A stretch of DNA of 64,000 nt from Nannochloropsis salina CCMP1776 (taxonomy: Eukaryota; Sar; Eustigmatophyceae; Eustigmatales; Monodopsidaceae): positions 238,583 to 302,582 of the forward strand of contig SDOX01000158.1 of assembly GCA_004565275.1 (NCBI GenBank). Direction: 5' to 3'. The notes under the pieces were generated by a model. That model saw only the letters and a program-made list of their open reading frames with translations, ran no database searches and was not told the origin of the DNA. Within the stretch, counting starts at the first letter, position 1, and every line of letters starts with the position of its first letter. Shown here piece after piece: positions 3,889 through 22,921 of this stretch. The position numbers were made by a program, and so were the translations under genes.

Positions 3889-3988
3889 NNNNNNNNNNNN
3901 NNNNNNNNNNNNNNNNNNNNNNNNNNNNNNNNNNNNNNNNNNNNNNNNNNNNNNNNNNNNNNNNNNNNNNNNNNNNNNNNNNNNNNNN
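3889..3988. other. Assembly gap, 100 Ns
   Basis: Exactly 100 undetermined bases, the usual scaffold placeholder, so the true distance is unknown. Its left side is CCTCCC-rich pyrimidine sequence. The gap cuts the 3' part of the minus-strand membrane protein gene. Confidence 1.
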
Positions 3989-12620: not shown

Positions 12621-15048
12621 ATGGGTGGCAGTGAGGACAAGCGCAAAAAGCGCAAGCTCGCGGAGGTAGGCAAGGTCAACAGGTGGAGAGTATCTTTCCG
12701 TCACGTTCCACTGTCGGCCGGATGCCTCTACTACTGGCCTTCTTCTCCGTCTGATGCGCTTAGTGCATGTTCTTAAAGTCGTTAACATGTGTCACCTGTT
12801 TTGCCGAGGTGATAGTGCCTTCTGACAATTTTATGAGCAAGAACTGATAAGTTTATGGTGTTTCTATCTTTACACTATCTCATGTGCCTTGGCAAGCCCC
12901 CTCTAATGCTCTATGATGACATTTGCGAGAGTGTTCCAAAAATTTTCCCTTCTTTTCCATCCATTCACTGATCTCCACGAAAGGAGCAAACGACGGAGGC
13001 CCTCGACCGGTCCGATGCAAAGGCCAGTAAGAAGAAGTGCAAGAAGAAGAAGCAGGATGCCGCTTCCTCTTGCCCATCCGCGAGACCCTTGGAAGTCTCT
13101 GATCCAGTAATAAAAAAAGATGAGTTATCGGACCAAAAAAAAGAAGAAGAAGAAGCTAGGGAGCGAAAGCTGCGCAAGAAGGCGAAGAAGGCATCGAAAC
13201 GGGCGGCCGAACTGCTCAAAATCTCTGAGGCCGAGGCGGCGGAGATGGAAGTCGAGGAGCCCGCCGACAAGCTCCTGAACGGCAGGACGAACGAGAAGCA
13301 GGATGAGCAATCCTCAGTTTCACGCCTGAGCAAAGAGGAGAGGAAGCGTGCCAAGAAAGAGAAGAAAAAGCAAGAGAAAATTGCCGCCGCCACGTCCCAT
13401 GCCACCCCACTTCCTTCCACCCCGTGTACCGCTGGCGCCCCCCACCCCTTGAGCAAGAGCGAGGCCCAGGCCTGGTGGGAAGAGAACGAGATCTTGGTCT
13501 CGGGCCCGGGGTGCGACGCCTTCCTCCCCACCCTCTCCTTCGCGGGGGTTGGTTTCCCCCCCGACTTGCTGAGATGCACCGAGGGCTTCGCCCGCCCTAC
13601 CCCCATCCAGGCTCAGTGCTGGCCCGTCCTGATGGGCGGCAGAGACATCATCGGCATCGCCGAGACCGGCTCCGGGAAGACGCTCACTTTCGTCCTTCCC
13701 GGATTGGAGCGCATCCGCAAGGCAGGGGCCCCGGACGGTGGGCGCGCGGGGCACGTCCCGCGCATGTTGGTGGTGGCCCCCACCCGGGAGTTGGCGATGC
13801 AGAGCGCGGAAGTGATCGACGGCGTGGTGGAGGGCTCGGGTCTGCGCAGCATCTGTCTCTTTGGCGGGGTGCCCAAACAGGAGCAGCGCCAGGCCTTGCG
13901 GCGGGGAGTGGACATTCTGGTGGCGACGCCGGGGCGGCTGGCGGACTTGATGGAGGAGGGGGAGTGCGACCTCTCCCGGGTATCCTATTTGGTCTTGGAC
14001 GAGGCGGACCGCATGCTCGACCAGGGCTTCGAGCAGGCCATCCGCGGGATCGTGAGCCACTGTGTGCCCCGCGGCCGGCGGCAGACGGCGTTGTTCTCCG
14101 CCACCTGGCCCGTGGCCATCCAGGCCTTGGCGGGAGAATTCCTGGAAAATCCGGTTAAGGTGACGATCGGGGGGGAGGATTTGAGCAGTAACAAGCGGGT
14201 GCAGCAGGTGGTGGAGGTGGTGGGAGAGTTCGAGCGGGAGGGCCGGCTGCGGGGGCTTCTGACGCAGTACCACGGTCGGCGCGACAACCGGGTCTTGGTC
14301 TTCGCGCTCTACAAGAAAGTGAGTGGGAAGGACGGAGGTCTGGACCTGGCACCTGGGACCCACCCTTTGACCTTCCCTCCCTCATTCCCTCCCATCCTTC
14401 CTTCCTTCCTCCCTTCCTTCCTCCCTCCCTTCCTCCCTCCTGTTGTCAGGAAGCGTCCCGATTGGAGCTGAATTTGCAGCGGCAGGGGTACAAGTGCTTA
14501 GGCATCCACGGAGACAAGGGCCAGAGCGACCGCATCGCCGCCATCGAGAAATTCAAGACCAAGGAGGTCCCCCTGCTGGTGGCCACGGACGTCGCTGCCC
14601 GGGGCCTGGACATCCCCGACGTGGAGGTGGTGATAAACTACTCCTTCCCCTTGACCATCGAAGACTACGTGCACAGGTAAAGGGAGGGCGGGAGGGAGGG
14701 AGGGCGGGAGGGAGGGAGGGAGGGAGGGAGAGAGAAGGGAAGGCAGGAAGCATGTAATCCTGTTGACGGCCTTTCCCTGCCCCTCTCCCTGTCTCCTGCG
14801 ACAGGATCGGCCGGACGGGCCGCGCGGGGAAGAAAGGCATCGCCCACACTTTTTTCCACCAGGGGGACAAGGGTAATGCGGGGGCTCTGGTCAACACCTT
14901 GCGCCAGGCGGGCCAGGAGGTGCCACCTGCCCTTTTGAAGTTCGGGACCGCGGTAAAGAAGAAAGAGCACAAGCTGTACGGGGCCTTCGGGCCTCGGGAG
15001 GGTATGGAGGAGAAGAAAGCCACCAAGATCGTTTTTGCGGACGACTGA
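12621..15048 (+). CDS. DBP3: DEAD-box RNA helicase, DBP3 / plant RH5 type
   Basis: Four exons (12621-12665, 12984-14318, 14450-14676, 14805-15048) splice in frame to 616 residues. DBP3 helicases act in the nucleolus in pre-rRNA processing for the large ribosomal subunit. The lysine-rich amino terminus (KRKKRKLAE, later KKKCKKKKQ and a KKAKKASKR stretch) fits nucleolar targeting. Helicase motifs in order: Q motif FARPTPIQAQCWP, Walker A AETGSGKT, PTRELAMQ, TPGRLADLM, VLDEADRMLDQGF, SATWP, then in exon 3 HGDKGQSDR and ATDVAARGLDIPDVE, and motif VI HRIGRTGRAGKKG created across the exon 3/4 junction. The tail VPPALLKFGTAVKKKEHKLYGAF is the DBP3-family signature. Intron 3 has a (GGGA)n arm after the donor and a pyrimidine arm before the acceptor. 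Confidence 0.93.
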
Positions 15049-15673
15049 GACAGGGTGCATACGAGGGCGGAAGGGGGGAGAGAGAGAGAAGGCGAACCCT
15101 GTATGCTGGAGAGTAGGGGGGGAGGGAAGGGGGAGAGCAATGGGACTCGCAGGGTACCCGGTCTCTCCGTGTACCCTGCCAGCACACGAAGGGAAGATAG
15201 GGCGGCGCGGGTGGCACGTGATGCCCCTTCATTCCCCAGAGGAGATGTCCCACAGCCCTCGGCGACTAACCCCCCCCTGTTCTCTCCGCGTCCGAACATT
15301 CTCAATATTCAAAGAACCATGACTTTTTGTTGGCCTCCGGCCACGGCGGTGTGCATCAACGACGTTGCGCCCTCGCCTCTACTCGGCGGAGGCAGCGACG
15401 TCGCTGGCCGTATGGGCGCCGACTGCTTTTCATTGCCCTCCGTCGACTTCCTCTTTGCTCCCTCTTGGCTCTTCTGCTCGCCTCTCAGAAGTTCGAGGGG
15501 CGAAGGGGAGCAGTAAATGTTACGTGGTCCCTCACCGACGAGGAAAGGCTTTGATTTGCCTCCTCTTTGTCCCATAACTCCACGAACACGGGCTCATAAC
15601 GCCCTCTTCCTCCCTTCACAGGCGCCTTTGTCCTCCCCCATCCCTCCTCCCACGTTCCTGCGGCCCGTGGCTT
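15049..15673. other. Spacer or 5' exon region of the next gene
   Basis: A stretch around 15410-15540 can be read as a basic and then hydrophobic leader (RRLLFIALRRLPLCSLLALLL), which might be the first coding exon of the membrane protein at 15674. I found no ATG-started frame with a matching splice phase, so it is left unassigned. Confidence 0.3.
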
Positions 15674-16018
15674 ATGGCTCCCTGGTCCTCCCGTGCAGGC
15701 GGCCGAAGCTTGGAGGAGGAGAGCCTGCGGGTGGACCTGGCCCTCAAATTGCGCGAAAAAGAGATGTCCCTCCTTCAGAGCCTTGTCGGCGGCCTGCGGA
15801 CATGGACCGCGGCCCTCTCGGAGATGGGGGTGGTGCTCAAACTCGTGCTCGCCGGCGCCGGCGGCTTGGTCTTCCTCTGGGGGGGGAGCTCCTTCGTATG
15901 GGCCGTGGTCAGGCCCTTTTGGGGGGGAAGGGAGGGGAGAGAGGGGCCGGTGGGATGGAAAGGGGGAAGAAGAAGGAGGGAGAGTGGGCGTCTGGAGGGA
16001 GGGGGAGGGGGAGGGAGA
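15674..16018 (+). CDS. Small membrane protein, partial; probably resumes after the gap and ends at 17100
   Basis: The supported part reads GRSLEEESLRVDLALKLREK, then LLQSLVGGLRTWTAALSEM, then one strong membrane helix (VVLKLVLAGAGGLVFLWGG). An acceptor CAG just before 15698 could open this exon. It ends in a basic tail, GWKGGRRRRESGRLE, encoded by a purine-rich segment. The same segment reappears right after the 100-N gap, where the frame reads KGGRRRRESGRLE, continues as an EG repeat and stops with GRRGTD at 17098-17100. I infer that the true gene goes directly from here to 17005-17100 and that the intervening sequence is misplaced. Family not recognised. Confidence 0.4.
15957..16018. repeat. 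Left copy of a ~60 bp segment duplicated across the gap
   Basis: Purine-rich segment starting GGAAAGGGGG and including GAGAGTGGGCGTCTGGAGG. It matches 17005-17066 almost base for base, differing only in the lengths of two G runs. Confidence 0.85.
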
Positions 16019-16904
16019 GAGGTGGAAGAGACGAAGAGGAAAGAGCGGTGTGGGAGACGGCGCTGCAAGTTCTCTGGTATCGTCCCCCTCCCCTCCTCCC
16101 TCCCTCCCTCCCTCCCTCCCTCCCTCCCTCCCTTGGATTCCGACCGTGGGTCCTCCACCTCATTCACGAGGAAAGCCGCAGGCGCGCCTCCCGCCTCTCT
16201 TCCCCGCCTTCCTCCTCCACCTCCCCACCCGGTTCCATCGCCGAACTCGTCTACAGCAGCACGTGGCAGTACCTGCGCGGCCTCTTTGCCGTTGCTTTCT
16301 TTTTGGCGCGAAAGTCGAAGCTGACCGGGTCGCAGCGGTTGGAGGAGGAGGAGTGGCTGGGAGGGGCCAGCCCTGCCTCTGTCGCTGCATCCCTCCTTTC
16401 CTTCCTGTTGGACCAGGACGCGTTATGGCTCCCGTACACGGGGGGCGTGCGGCGGGAAGGCTGGATGGTGCTGGTGCGGTTGATGGTGAGGGAGGGGGGG
16501 AGGGAGGGAGGGAGGGAGGGGGTGCGACACGTGCTGGACGCGGCCTTGGAAGGGGATTACATGCGGGAGGTGGAAGGAGGGGACAGGATGATCTTGGAGC
16601 GGTGGAGGAGGAAAGGGAGGAAGGCGAGACCCCGCCGCCCGAGGAGGGAGGCAAGGAGGGAGGGGCGGGGGCAGCCTACACGGAGGTGTTCGTAGAGGCG
16701 GCGGAGGAGGACGGAGGGCGGAGGCGGGGGGCGCGAGGGGGGCGGCTGGTGTTTGCAGGGGGGAGGATGGTGGAGGAGGTGGCCCTGGAGGCCTACCAGG
16801 CCGCCGGCTACCGGGGCCTGTGGTCGGAAGCTCGGCTCTACCGCCTGCTTTTCCGCCTTCTCTTGTGGGAACAGATTGTGGACCGGGACGTGCCTGGCGC
16901 TTTC
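16019..16904 (+). pseudogene. FAN1: Displaced central fragment of the FAN1 nuclease gene
   Basis: FAN1 is a structure-specific nuclease that acts with FANCD2/FANCI on DNA crosslinks. Two frames carry the central part of such a protein. The first (about 16240-16640) has ARKSKLTGSQRLEEEEW, ALWLPYTGGVRREGWMVLVR and ALEGDYMREVEGGDRMILER, which fit the TPR-like region of FAN1 (pattern RGRWW-DRLAL, then VR-GHRL). The second (about 16690-16904) has VEEVALEAYQAAGYRGLW and ARLYRLLFRLLLWEQI, then DVPGAF, matching the FAN1 segment VEELALAHY..GLLLWD..IPDVF that precedes the catalytic PLDL stretch. The frame change near 16690 implies an intron or an error. The fragment runs into the gap and is not followed by its natural continuation, which lies at 21.7-22.9 kb. 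It is labelled pseudogene only because it is incomplete in place; I think it is a misplaced piece of a real gene. Confidence 0.6.
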
Positions 16905-17004
16905 NNNNNNNNNNNNNNNNNNNNNNNNNNNNNNNNNNNNNNNNNNNNNNNNNNNNNNNNNNNNNNNNNNNNNNNNNNNNNNNNNNNNNNNNNNNNNNNN
17001 NNNN
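16905..17004. other. Assembly gap, 100 Ns
   Basis: Second placeholder of exactly 100 Ns. The sequence to its right repeats sequence found about 950 bp to its left, which questions the join. Confidence 1.
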
Positions 17005-17100
17005 GGAAAGGGGGGAAGAAGAAGGAGGGAGAGTGGGCGTCTGGAGGAGGGGGAGGGGGAGGGGGAGGGGGAGGGGGAGGGACGGAGGGGGACGGACTAA
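17005..17100 (+). CDS. Probable 3' end of the small membrane protein
   Basis: The frame KGGRRRRESGRLEE is followed by EG repeats and RRGTD and then TAA at 17098-17100. Its first 60 bp duplicate 15957-16018. Joining the two copies gives one continuous frame for the membrane protein that starts near 15674. Confidence 0.4.
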   Translation, partial: GKGGRRRRESGRLEEGEGEGEGEGEGRRGTD

Positions 17101-17618
17101 AAAGCCTTTGTGGCAGAAAGGCACACTGACAGAAAGAAGGGCAGTCAGGCCCTGTTAGAGATCAAGAAAGGAGCGGCCTCGCCATCATTTTCGTTATAAA
17201 ATGTGCTTTGACTCGGGTCTGGGCGACATCAACGCCTTCCGGTCTACCTCCCTATCTCCCCCATTACACTCTGTACACAACCTAGCTTTACTGTACACCT
17301 GTCCTTACGATTCGTCTCTTTCGCCAAATGATTTCCCGCCATTTTTGGCCCCACGAGAATCGCCCTCCATCCCCTTCGCCGTGGCAGCCCCTCACCTACA
17401 CTCCGGCCGGCCCCTCTCCTTCCCTCCCTCCCTCCCTCCCTCCCTCTCTCCCTCTCCTCCCTCCCTCCCCGCTCTTTTCCACACTCACCCTTCCTCTCTT
17501 CACCCATTTCTACTTCACACATGCCCTCCCTTGCTCTCTCACTCAGGCCTCTCCCCCAGCCCCGCTACCCCCTTTCCCTCTCTTGCCCACCGAGCCCTCC
17601 CTGTCCCTCCCCCGCCCC
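17101..17618. other. 3' spacer, pyrimidine-rich
   Basis: Between the end of the small membrane protein and the stop of the ankyrin/WW gene on the other strand. It contains (TCCC)n around 17415-17470 and CCT-rich sequence but no gene I can support. Confidence 0.4.
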
Positions 17619-18736
<1,118 letters not shown>

Positions 18737-19595
18737 ATGTTATATCCTGACCCTGGCGGCAGGAGCTCTTCTAATGCAGCGCAACGCAGTGTATCCCCTT
18801 CAATGCCCGGAGCGTACTGGTGGAAAAGGAGTCCGATCGTGACGTTTTAATTCCTACAAGAGCATACAAAGCACCTTTCAGCCGAGTGATAAGACGTATG
18901 ATGCGAACTTTGTCACATTTGCATCGTAAATAGGCACTTAAGTACGATTGTTGTGAAAAAGTCGCTGGGCTTTGCATAGATGGGTTGGGGAGGTCAAAGC
19001 AGTGTTCCTCCCCGTCTTGGAAGGTCAATTAATCACCACACAGGGTCTACTTTAGAAGGGCATTTGTCTCATGGACACTGGATTTCAGTTTATCAGCTAT
19101 GTACCATTTGCACAGGGAGACAATGCCTTGCATGGACGCCACGGTGTTCATAGGGGGAAGGGGCAGCGTTCCCTGAACATGCTTCAATCGCCGTCGCCGC
19201 TCCCCCCCCTCGATCCCGAAAATAGTTTATAAGACTATGCTCCCCTGGGGCTCAACTCCCATCGCGTCCAATTACGTGACCTTCCTCTCGTGAAGCTCAC
19301 GCGAAGTGGGTGACCCTTCTTCTTTCTGGGGGTGGAAGGCGTTGTCCGCGAGGGCCCCCGGAGGCCCGCGTACCTCACATTCGACCATCACCAGCGGGGC
19401 CCGACCCCTCGACTGATCTTTTATCGTTTACCCACCTGTACCTCCTGACAGGCCCCGCCAGTGTCAGGGTCGACATGGGGGGGAAGGACAAGGCTTGAGA
19501 GCTGACGACCGGCTCCAGCGACCTCCCCTCAGCCCGGAAGCATTTCTGATGCGCCCTGTGCTGGGAGCGTAAAGCCTCGAAGCCGATTGGTTGTG
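18737..19595. promoter_or_regulatory. Intergenic region upstream of the ankyrin/WW gene
   Basis: The stretch from 18840 to 19260 is relatively AT-rich and lies between divergent coding signals. No recognisable gene. It must contain the ankyrin/WW promoter and perhaps 5' exons of the gene to the right. Confidence 0.4.
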
Positions 19596-21540
19596 ATGGA
19601 TGGCGCGCGTGCACGCAACCCGTCAGGGCCCTGCACGCCGTGCGAGGACTCCTCTCGGAAACGTATTCGTCCAGGGCCTGCCCCGGGGTCGGGACCGGCG
19701 GCAGTGAGGGACGTCGCCTCCACGCCCTTCCCCGGGGGCCCCCGCGCCCGCGCACGCCTTGCCCTGCACGCCCGCATCAACCACCCGCTACCTCCATCGA
19801 TCCAGCGGCATCTGCATCAAATCATCGTGGCTTGGAAGCAGAAACCATGGTCTTTCCGAGTCAACAAGACCCTCCCTCTGGTCCCTGCCCCGCCACCTGA
19901 AGAACGTCGCCCGACAGCGGCGCCTCCCCATGCGCCCACCGCCCACGCCCAGCGCCAGTCCCCGAGTCCTGCCCTCCCCGCAGGGTCTTGCCAGCCGGAG
20001 ATGCCACGTGCGCTGTCTCCCAGCCTCTGCCCCGAGACATGGGCATGCACCCGGCGGGCCACCAGCCACGACCGGAGGAGGGTCCGCGCCGGGCGCCCCA
20101 GGCCCTCCTGCATCCGCCGTCGAGATTCGAAGCAAGACCACCCTCGGGCTGCTCCCACCCTTTCCGCCCCCCCCACCCCTCCCTTTGTCCTGTTGGGCCT
20201 GGGCCCCCCCCATTCCGACGGCCTCGTCGTTATAGCCGCCCGGTCCGGGGCCACCTCCTCGAGGGCGGGAGCGCAAGCCTCGGTGGTAGGCGCCCCCGAC
20301 GGCCCCCTCTCGCTGGCCTGGCACCGGCCTCCCTCCCTCCCTCCCCCCGCCCTCGCCGGGCACTGGCACCTCCTGCTCGCCCGCCTCGCCCCCGACCCAG
20401 TACCCGACCAGACCTGCCGTATCGCCCGCCCTTCCTCCCTCCCACCCTCCGCCGCACCCTCCCTGCCCCTCATCAACCCCTGGCCGGGCCTTCGGCGTCT
20501 GCTCCGCCACTTCCAGGGAGGGAAAGAGGAAGCTTTCTCTTCCCCTTCCTCCCCCTTTCCCTCCTCGCCTTCCCCCTCTTGCCACCACCTCTTCCCCCCC
20601 GCGGAGCGAGCACGCTTAACCGCCCTCGCTTCCTCCCCCTGGACCTCCCAGGCCGCCCTCTCCCTCCTCCTCCTCGTCAACGCCCTCCCCTCCCATCCCC
20701 CCGCCCTTCCCCCCGCCCTTCCCCCAAGCGGCCATCTCACAAGACTCTCCGCCCCTCCTCCCTCCCGCCCTCCCCAAAGCGACGTCCCACCTCCCCACGA
20801 AGAAGCCGGCCCCTCGGTCCTCTCCCTCCTCCCCGCCCTCTGGCCCCTCCTCTCTCTCCTGGCGCCCCGCCCCTCTCCTCCTGACTCTGCCTCTTCCCTC
20901 CCCCTCCCTCCCTGCGGCCGCCTCCTCGATAAGCAGGGGCCCGTCTCCGCCTTCCTTTTCCACGCCCTCCCCCGGCCCCCCCCACCCATTCCCTTGGAGA
21001 CTGAACCCCCCCCTCTGGCCCCTGCTCCCCCCTCTTCCCACGGCGCATGCCCCAACTCCCCCTCCCACCCCAGCCCAAAAGCCGCCACCGACCGCCCCAG
21101 CCTAAACCCTCCTGGCCCCTCCCTCCAGCAGCAGCCAGTGGATCGACACGACCTCATCCCTCCCTCCCTTCCTCCCTTCCCCTCGCCCCTCCCTCTCCTT
21201 CAAGACCTCCGCAGCAAGGGCCTGGTGGTCTTCACGCCGCCCTCTTCACCCGATTCGGTCATCGCCTCCAAGGCCGACCCGTCCTCCCTCCCGCCCTCCC
21301 TCCCGCCCTCCCTCCCGCCCTCCCCCGGGACCTGGTCCGTGCATCCCTCCCTCCTCCGAGCCTTGCACCGTCTGGCTTTTTTGTACACGGGGAGCTGGGA
21401 GCTGGTGGGAGGGCGGGAGGGAGGGCGGAAGGGAAACGAAGCGCTCGCTTCCATCCTCGCCTTGCTGAGTGGAGAGGAGTTGGGCCTGTTCGACTGCCCG
21501 CCCTCGGCCCGGGCTTCTCTTGAGACGTCGTCCTCTCTCC
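19596..21540 (+). CDS. Long Pro/Ser-rich frame, possible amino-terminal part of FAN1
   Basis: Continuous frame from the ATG at 19596. Most of it is Pro/Ser/Ala-rich and unrecognisable, and (CCCT)n tracts on the coding strand inflate that composition. Near its end are more ordinary stretches: LLQDLRSKGLVVFTPP, LLRALHRLAFLYTGSWELV and ALASILALLSGEELGLF. The first and third resemble the FAN1 region where a helical block is followed by the SAP-like LLSAPELKSLAK segment, and the VRR-NUC part of FAN1 follows directly downstream on the same strand. The link is suggestive, not firm. Unrecognised introns are likely, and part of the frame may not be translated. Confidence 0.35.
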
Positions 21541-21569
21541 CAGAAGACAAAGCGGGAGGAGAAGAGAAG

Positions 21570-21718
21570 AAAGGAGAAGAAGAAGAAGAAGAAGAAGGAG
21601 GAGGAGGAGGAGGAGGAGGAGGAAGAGGAGGAGGAGGAGGAGAAGGAGGAGAAGGAGGAGGAGGAGGAGGAGGAGGAGGAGGAGGAGGAGGAGGAGGAGG
21701 AGGAGGAGGAGGAGGAGG
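21570..21718. repeat. (GAA)n/(GGA)n microsatellite
   Basis: About 150 bp of GAA grading into GGA. Depending on frame it encodes Glu or Gly runs. It sits exactly where the central FAN1 segment ought to be, immediately upstream of the frame GIEARLREV. Confidence 0.9.
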
Positions 21719-22921
21719 GGATCGAGGCGAGGCTGAGAGAGGTGAATGCCCTTGTCCGGCAGCGGTGCTTGGGGCGGGAGGTGCGGCGTGTGTGGGACCG
21801 GTACGAATGGGTATTGTGGGCGGGGAGGGAGGGGGGGGGAGGGAGGGGGGAGGGAGGGCAGGCGGTGGACGTGTGACGGGGTAACGAGGGAGGTGATGGC
21901 GGAGGTGGCGGTGGGTTTGGGGCAGGCGGGGCTCTTAATTGGGATACTACGACGGCTGGCCTTGAATTTGAGAGCCTGGTCGAAGGGGATGCCGGACCTG
22001 GTGGTGTGGGCGAGGAGGGAGGGCGGGAGGGAGGGACGGAGGGAAGGGCTGCCCCGGGGGGGAAAGGCTCGAAGGGGGGAGAGGGGGAGGAAGGAAGATA
22101 AGGGGGGCGGCCGGCAGGCACGCCTGGAGGGAGGGGGATGCAGGGGGTTAGTTAGGCGTCCTAGCCTTGTGAAGGCGGGTGCCGACGGAGGCGGCGACGG
22201 GGGGCGGGAGCGGGTCTGTGCGAGGGCCGTACATGAGAGGGAAGGGAGGGCGACAGAGGGAGAGGGACGAGCAAAGGAGATGGAGGGGGCGGGGTGGGAG
22301 GGGGAGATGGAGCTTGGAGTGGAGGAAGAGGAAGGGAAGGAGAGCTCGGCGTCCATGGAGCGGGACGGTCCTGAGAGCCTCTGTGTCCAGCTGGTGGAGC
22401 GGGAAAGTGAAGCGTGGAGGGAAGGATGCGGGCGCCGGGAAGGGAGAAATCCGGGGGCAGGAAAAGAGGAGGAGGGGGCCGATGGAAGGGAGGACGAGGA
22501 GTGGGAGAGGAGGGCGGGAGGGGGAGGAAACCGTGAAGAGGGATTGTGCGAAGTGGAGCAAATCAGCCAAGCTTGGGGGCGCTCGTTCATGCGCTCGTTC
22601 CAGCCCGGTGCCAGAAGGGAAGGGGAAGGAGGGGAGGGGGAGGAGGAGGAGGAGGAGGAGGAGGAGGAGGAGGAGGAGGAGGAGGACCCTAGTATTGAAG
22701 TCAAGCTGGTCGAGGTGAAGAGCAAGAACGACTTCCTCTCCCCGCATCAAGAGGCCTGGATCTGTGAGCTCCTGCGGGACGAGAAAGGGTGGAATGCCGA
22801 GGGAGGGGGGGAGGCAGGGCGGGAGGGAGAGCGGAAGGGAGGGCGGGAGGCAGGGGCAAAGGGAGGAACATCAGCACCCGCGGCCACGTCGTTCGAGCTC
22901 TGCCATGTACGTAGTGTGTAA
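21719..22921 (+). CDS. FAN1: FAN1 nuclease, carboxy-terminal VRR-NUC exons
   Basis: Two frames carry FAN1-type sequence. The first, starting right after the GGA repeat, reads GIEARLREVNALVRQRCLG then WDRYEW, matching the FAN1 stretch RRPALEARLQLI to SWDRF. The second reads EVMAEVAVGLGQAGLLIGIL, ALNLRAWSKGMPDLVVWA, and later IEVKLVEVKSKNDFLSPHQE, WICELL, and ends FELCHVRSV. These are the VRR-NUC motifs PD..(x)..ExK: Asp in GMPDLVVW, Glu and Lys in LVEVK, so the catalytic residues are intact. An intron near 21800-21860 is needed to join the frames. About 230 residues of E/G/R-rich sequence lie between PD and ExK where other FAN1 proteins have roughly ten; this may be an insertion or contain an unrecognised intron. 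The upstream central portion is missing here and lies at 16.2-16.9 kb. Confidence 0.68.
22640..22686. repeat. (GGA)n microsatellite in FAN1 VRR-NUC exon
   Basis: Uninterrupted GGA run that encodes a poly-Glu tract just before the IEVKLVEVK strand of the nuclease. Confidence 0.85.

Follow-up and report, generated by a model that had tools for sequence, protein, structure and literature searches.

A FAN1-type nuclease gene in two pieces in Nannochloropsis salina, very probably through misassembly

The sequence of one FAN1-type nuclease gene, FAN1-B, lies in two places 4.8 kb apart within a 64-kb stretch of Nannochloropsis salina DNA (C35:238583–302582; the window, with positions counted from its first letter). 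On sequence evidence, this broken order is very probably due to a misjoined contig in which assembly put the middle of the gene 4.8 kb too far upstream. The genome searched (26.5 Mb, 103 contigs) also holds a second FAN1 frame, FAN1-A, which is uninterrupted (1021 aa, contig C2, 772324–769262, minus strand), so that two paralogs are present, the window gene among them, and FAN1 is not missing from the genome.

Two pieces of one protein

Re-reading of the sequence and a codon check located both FAN1 pieces on the plus strand where the original prediction had put them, and the claim that the piece at 21.7–22.9 kb continues the piece at 16 kb was borne out by a whole-genome search with P0015, a related protein (12 candidates scored). 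Successive stretches of P0015 matched the two pieces in turn: residues 88–210 matched 16566–16907, residues 236–274 matched 21718–21831 (50% identity, E = 0.515), residues 271–338 matched 21854–22069 (60% identity, E = 1.9e-14) and residues 528–599 matched 22682–22921 (E = 5.9e-9). Residues 211–235 had no match anywhere in the genome, although 25 residues are few enough to escape detection, and elsewhere, on other contigs, the acidic stretch 411–526 gave two weak matches (E = 0.014 and 0.071). The split of these matches indicates that the sequence of one protein occupies two places in a changed order, with a short part unfound. The coding features are as follows.

16023–16904, plus strand: middle piece of FAN1-B, probably displaced; 16566–16904 is securely FAN1, the preceding part weakly so
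21718–21831, plus strand: GIEARL part of the FAN1-B nuclease domain (P0015 236–274; pairwise z 14.1)
21854–22069, plus strand: part of the FAN1-B nuclease domain with PDLVVW (P0015 271–338; D codon at 21995–21997)
22682–22921, plus strand: carboxy end of FAN1-B with E-x-K and the stop codon (P0015 528–599; VRR_NUC match)

P0015 (601 aa) and P0016 (523 aa), the nearest relatives, each have the middle part and the nuclease part within a single chain, whereas the window pieces lie apart; both are predicted proteins, and the contiguity of their DNA is therefore assumed. They were among five proteins recovered with a shorter composite query, while a longer composite query had yielded two distant FAN1 proteins and no near one among the candidates scored (in each of the three protein searches, that for FAN1-A included, roughly 8000 candidates sharing most words). 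In pairwise tests against P0015 and P0016 with 200 shuffles, the GIEARL part gave z values of 14.1 and 11.8 (none of the 200 shuffles reached the score), the nuclease-side middle part 32.5 and 25.4, and the PDLVVW part 29.5 and 32.6. Scores stayed within background for the GIEARL part against six other proteins (z at most 1.5), for the middle part against three FAN1-A proteins (z 1.3 to 2.4), and for the window middle and GIEARL parts against FAN1-A itself (z 1.6 and −1.5). Over the matched stretches, the pieces are 50–64% identical to P0015 or P0016.

The 949 stop-to-stop window frames of at least 40 aa were also searched with a profile built from 17 FAN1 relatives. Two frames scored below E = 1, namely 21746–22918 (E = 1e-28, profile positions 708–801) and one that ends at 16904 (E = 6e-14, profile positions 599–651); the GIEARL-bearing frame was absent from the best 40 of the 949. 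The profile includes P0015 and P0016 and is thus not independent of the protein search that yielded both; the pairwise shuffle tests and the genome search with P0015 examine each piece on its own. Against solved structures, the C frame matched human FAN1 weakly (E = 0.02), and the joined middle piece matched FAN1 at E = 1.5, ranked below two unrelated chains.

P0015 itself is tied to FAN1 by sequence (best E against human FAN1 = 4.7e-9) and by its predicted model (mean pLDDT 63.6, pTM 0.53; blocks over 161–330 and 531–560 mostly 80–95, two near 64), for which all 20 matches to solved structures with E ≤ 0.001 were FAN1 chains. The best of these had E = 2.3e-7 over 162 columns; the alignments take in about a third of the model, which accounts for TM-scores of 0.20–0.26. 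A tree was built from 216 columns and 20 rows, the window row being joined from its separate pieces. In it, the window protein grouped with P0015 and P0016 (support 100/100; branch length 1.94 changes per column), and the window protein was 64% identical to P0016 over 173 columns.

The spacing between the DVPGAF and IEARL motifs, originally put at about 30 residues, is indeed short in relatives: counted from the F of GAF to the I of IEARL, it is 22–59 residues in the 18 of 19 relatives that allowed a measurement, with 23 in ten of them and 27 in both P0015 and P0016. That the pieces come from two different genes, or from transcripts joined by trans-splicing, is scarcely credible. The observed order is all that speaks for such an origin; against it stand the matches of both pieces to consecutive parts of a single related protein and the coincidence of the missing residues with an assembly gap.

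Gap, copied flank and purine run

The sequence on either side of the middle piece, and the run at which the rest of the gene resumes, carry the following features.

15957–16022, plus strand: left flank copy, 66 bases, the 3' side of the neighbouring gene running into a purine tract
16905–17004, no strand: 100-N gap directly following DVPGAF
17005–17070, plus strand: right flank copy, starting at the first base past the gap
21554–21721, plus strand: purine run, a GAA/GGA array of 168 nt, proposed second seam; frames differ across it

The gap interrupts coding sequence, and the initial 66 bases past it match 15957–16022 at 94%; the FAN1 middle piece starts where the match to this flank stops. 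Up to the point of divergence, the flank copies differ solely by two one-G length differences, so that G runs would be miscounted in this assembly if the copies are one place read twice. The unique 42-base core of the flank was found at two places in the 26.5-Mb genome and at no third, and it did not occur in 100 shuffles of the window. In the core search, which skipped simple repeats, the query 15600–15998 matched itself, 43 bases past the gap and no other place. With the flank copied and its unique core at no third place, the neighbouring gene appears to resume past the gap, interrupted by the FAN1 block. Across the genome, the middle piece was matched over its full length once; a further 85 matches, of 31 to 84 bases, all fall in its G- and A-rich part (query 328–442).

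Gaps were surveyed over 172.5 kb (the window plus 98.5 kb from C35 and 10 kb from C2), and four N runs were seen, with lengths of 100 (twice), 2097 and 6975. The other 100-N gap, at 3889–3988, has no copied flank; with the copy at one of two such gaps, the signature is not established as usual for this assembly. The 2097-N run lies just beyond the window end (C35:302583–304679) and may be a gap.

Together these observations argue for the misplacement that had been predicted for the 16-kb piece. An assembly gap (16905–17004) borders the block, the sequence past it opens with a duplicate of that at the proposed false seam, and the block is single-copy and fits elsewhere, in line with the colinear relatives; the missing residues, P0015 211–235, fall at the gap. 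The predicted role of the GAA/GGA run as the seam at which the middle is missing likewise agrees with the reading frames. Three plus-strand purine runs in the window reach 60 nt or more, and that at 21554–21721 is the longest. In the upstream frame, which then continues into a non-FAN1 frame, most of this run codes for glycine; in the GIEARL frame, the end of the run codes for glutamate, so that the two clash.

A plausible path can be proposed for the assembler. It would have passed from the purine-rich 15957–16022 of the neighbouring gene into FAN1 through a similar purine tract, run on to DVPGAF and stopped there, leaving the gap of 100 N. The sequence that truly continues the neighbouring gene would then have been placed past the gap as the next contig, hence the second copy of the 66 bases, and at the proper site the upstream side would have been joined straight to GIEARL across the GAA/GGA run. 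In the true order, the upstream part would be followed by the purine array, the middle piece, about 25–27 missing residues and the nuclease end. A published Nannochloropsis salina assembly was made by merging 454 and Illumina data that had been cut into artificial reads (PMC6953503). It comprises 27.6 Mb in 194 scaffolds and may differ from the genome analysed here (PMC6953503).

Two frame switches, placed by eye at 21831–21854 and about 16600–16690, lie within conserved FAN1 sequence, both in G-rich stretches similar to the G runs of the flank copies. Errors in run length could account for them, as could decay or a very short intron. At 21831–21854, a G-run length error is as likely as an intron, for which a GT...AG pair seen by eye would give about 46 nt.

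The same features bear on a real rearrangement, in which the middle of FAN1-B would have moved into the purine-rich 3' side of the neighbouring gene with duplication of about 66 bases of the target. Direct repeats can border genuine insertions, so the copied flank could also be the mark of one; the two frame switches would suit a decaying copy and could mean decay instead of error; and the loss of FAN1-B could be tolerated with FAN1-A uninterrupted. However, the break would have to coincide exactly with an assembly gap, the removed part would have to adjoin a purine array, about 25 residues would also have to be lost, and the pieces are still 50–64% identical to P0015 or P0016. We therefore consider a rearrangement improbable and misjoining very probable, in keeping with the original ranking of a FAN1-breaking rearrangement as the less likely of the two.

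Both arrangements might instead be present, with a duplicated fragment near the neighbouring gene and a complete gene at 19.5–22.9 kb that collapsed at the repeat. The array at 21554–21721 appears to be of a collapse-prone type, but the middle piece has its one full-length match in the assembly and P0015 88–210 was matched at that single place, which makes this arrangement very unlikely.

Amino-terminal sequence and neighbouring frames

Two open frames lie between the pieces.

17619–18221, minus strand: ankyrin-repeat and WW-domain frame, not FAN1 (Pfam Ank E = 5.6e-12, WW E = 1.8e-10)
19506–21553, plus strand: open frame, candidate amino terminus of FAN1-B by its position and openness

The frame at 19506–21553 may belong to FAN1-B, as was originally suggested. 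The suggestion found no backing in Pfam, the profile search, pairwise shuffles or profile–profile comparison, none of which gave a significant match, and the frame is accordingly retained as a candidate only. An SAP/HTH amino-terminal domain in particular had no Pfam or profile match in 19506–21553, and the pairwise and profile scores lay within those of shuffles.

The label of TPR/pre-nuclease segment given to the 16-kb piece holds in part: 16566–16904 is FAN1, whereas the TPR label on the first part is weak. About 38 residues of this first part match P0015 (z 4.8, with one of 200 shuffles as high), and its profile comparison score lies within the range of 40 shuffles. Pfam gave no match to FAN1_TPR (PF21170) in the window piece, P0015 or P0016, and none to FAN1_HTH in the window paralog; FAN1-A (as P0003) scored 19.7 for FAN1_TPR, for which the cut-off is 24.

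Further upstream, the plus strand carries a DEAD-box helicase frame at 12972–14471, after which, by eye, further helicase-like sequence seems to be present in another frame.

Active site and the two paralogs

The active site is covered by two further features.

16827–16829, plus strand: active-site glutamate codon, aligned with human FAN1 E834 (alignment and codon check)
21998–22711, plus strand: insert of 238 residues, acidic, low-complexity and repeat-rich, between the catalytic D and the E of E-x-K

VRR_NUC (PF08774) was detected in the frame 21746–22921 (E = 4e-12, passing the cut-off) and in the joined conserved parts of FAN1-B (E = 3.7e-17). The active site of human FAN1 contains D960, E975, K977 and E834 (PMC4348246). 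In the 20-row alignment, metal-binding E, D, E and K aligned with human E834, D960, E975 and K977 in every row, the joined window row included, and VRR_NUC together with this residue set also aligns the window protein with the human and Pseudomonas FAN1 structures. The human columns were assigned through the P0015–human alignment with an inferred chain offset of four, which we take from the presumed length of human FAN1. A putative counterpart of the helical insertion before the PD strand of VRR_NUC aligns in the window protein and is helical in the predicted model of P0015.

The codons of this catalytic set are divided between the two FAN1 pieces: the first glutamate is on the 16-kb piece, and the others are on the second (D 21995–21997, E 22712–22714, K 22718–22720). 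If the order is real, the active site is split; a genome in which the first catalytic glutamate has moved, leaving the active site over two places beside an uninterrupted FAN1-A, is however an unlikely outcome. If whole, the FAN1-B product would be expected to function, as FAN1 does, as a metal-dependent flap nuclease.

The distance from D to E-x-K sets FAN1-B apart from most FAN1 proteins, with 238 residues compared with 20 in FAN1-A and 14 in most animal relatives. Similar distances occur in P0015 (219) and P0016 (213), and the distance is also long in P0014 (276) and P0006 (102), so that the long insert is not unique to the window paralog; in the other 15 relatives it is 12–32. FAN1-A, whose relatives include proteins named FAN1 (protein search) and in which VRR_NUC was detected on contig C2 at E = 2.1e-23, shares the catalytic set and the VRR_NUC domain with the window paralog. 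The two fall in separate tree groups, each with 100/100 support, and FAN1-A is a single open frame without a gap, whereas the window paralog is broken. Relative to known FAN1, the window paralog is set apart by a gene that is non-contiguous in the assembly and by having no FAN1_TPR or FAN1_HTH match. In the literature searched, we found no paper on FAN1 in Nannochloropsis or on algal FAN1 VRR-NUC paralogs.

There are thus two FAN1-type genes here, of which the window gene is divergent and carries a long stretch between two active-site motifs. The artefact matters for annotation: gene calling would yield fragments, and there is a risk that the paralog is taken for lost. The window gene is a small addition to what is known of FAN1.
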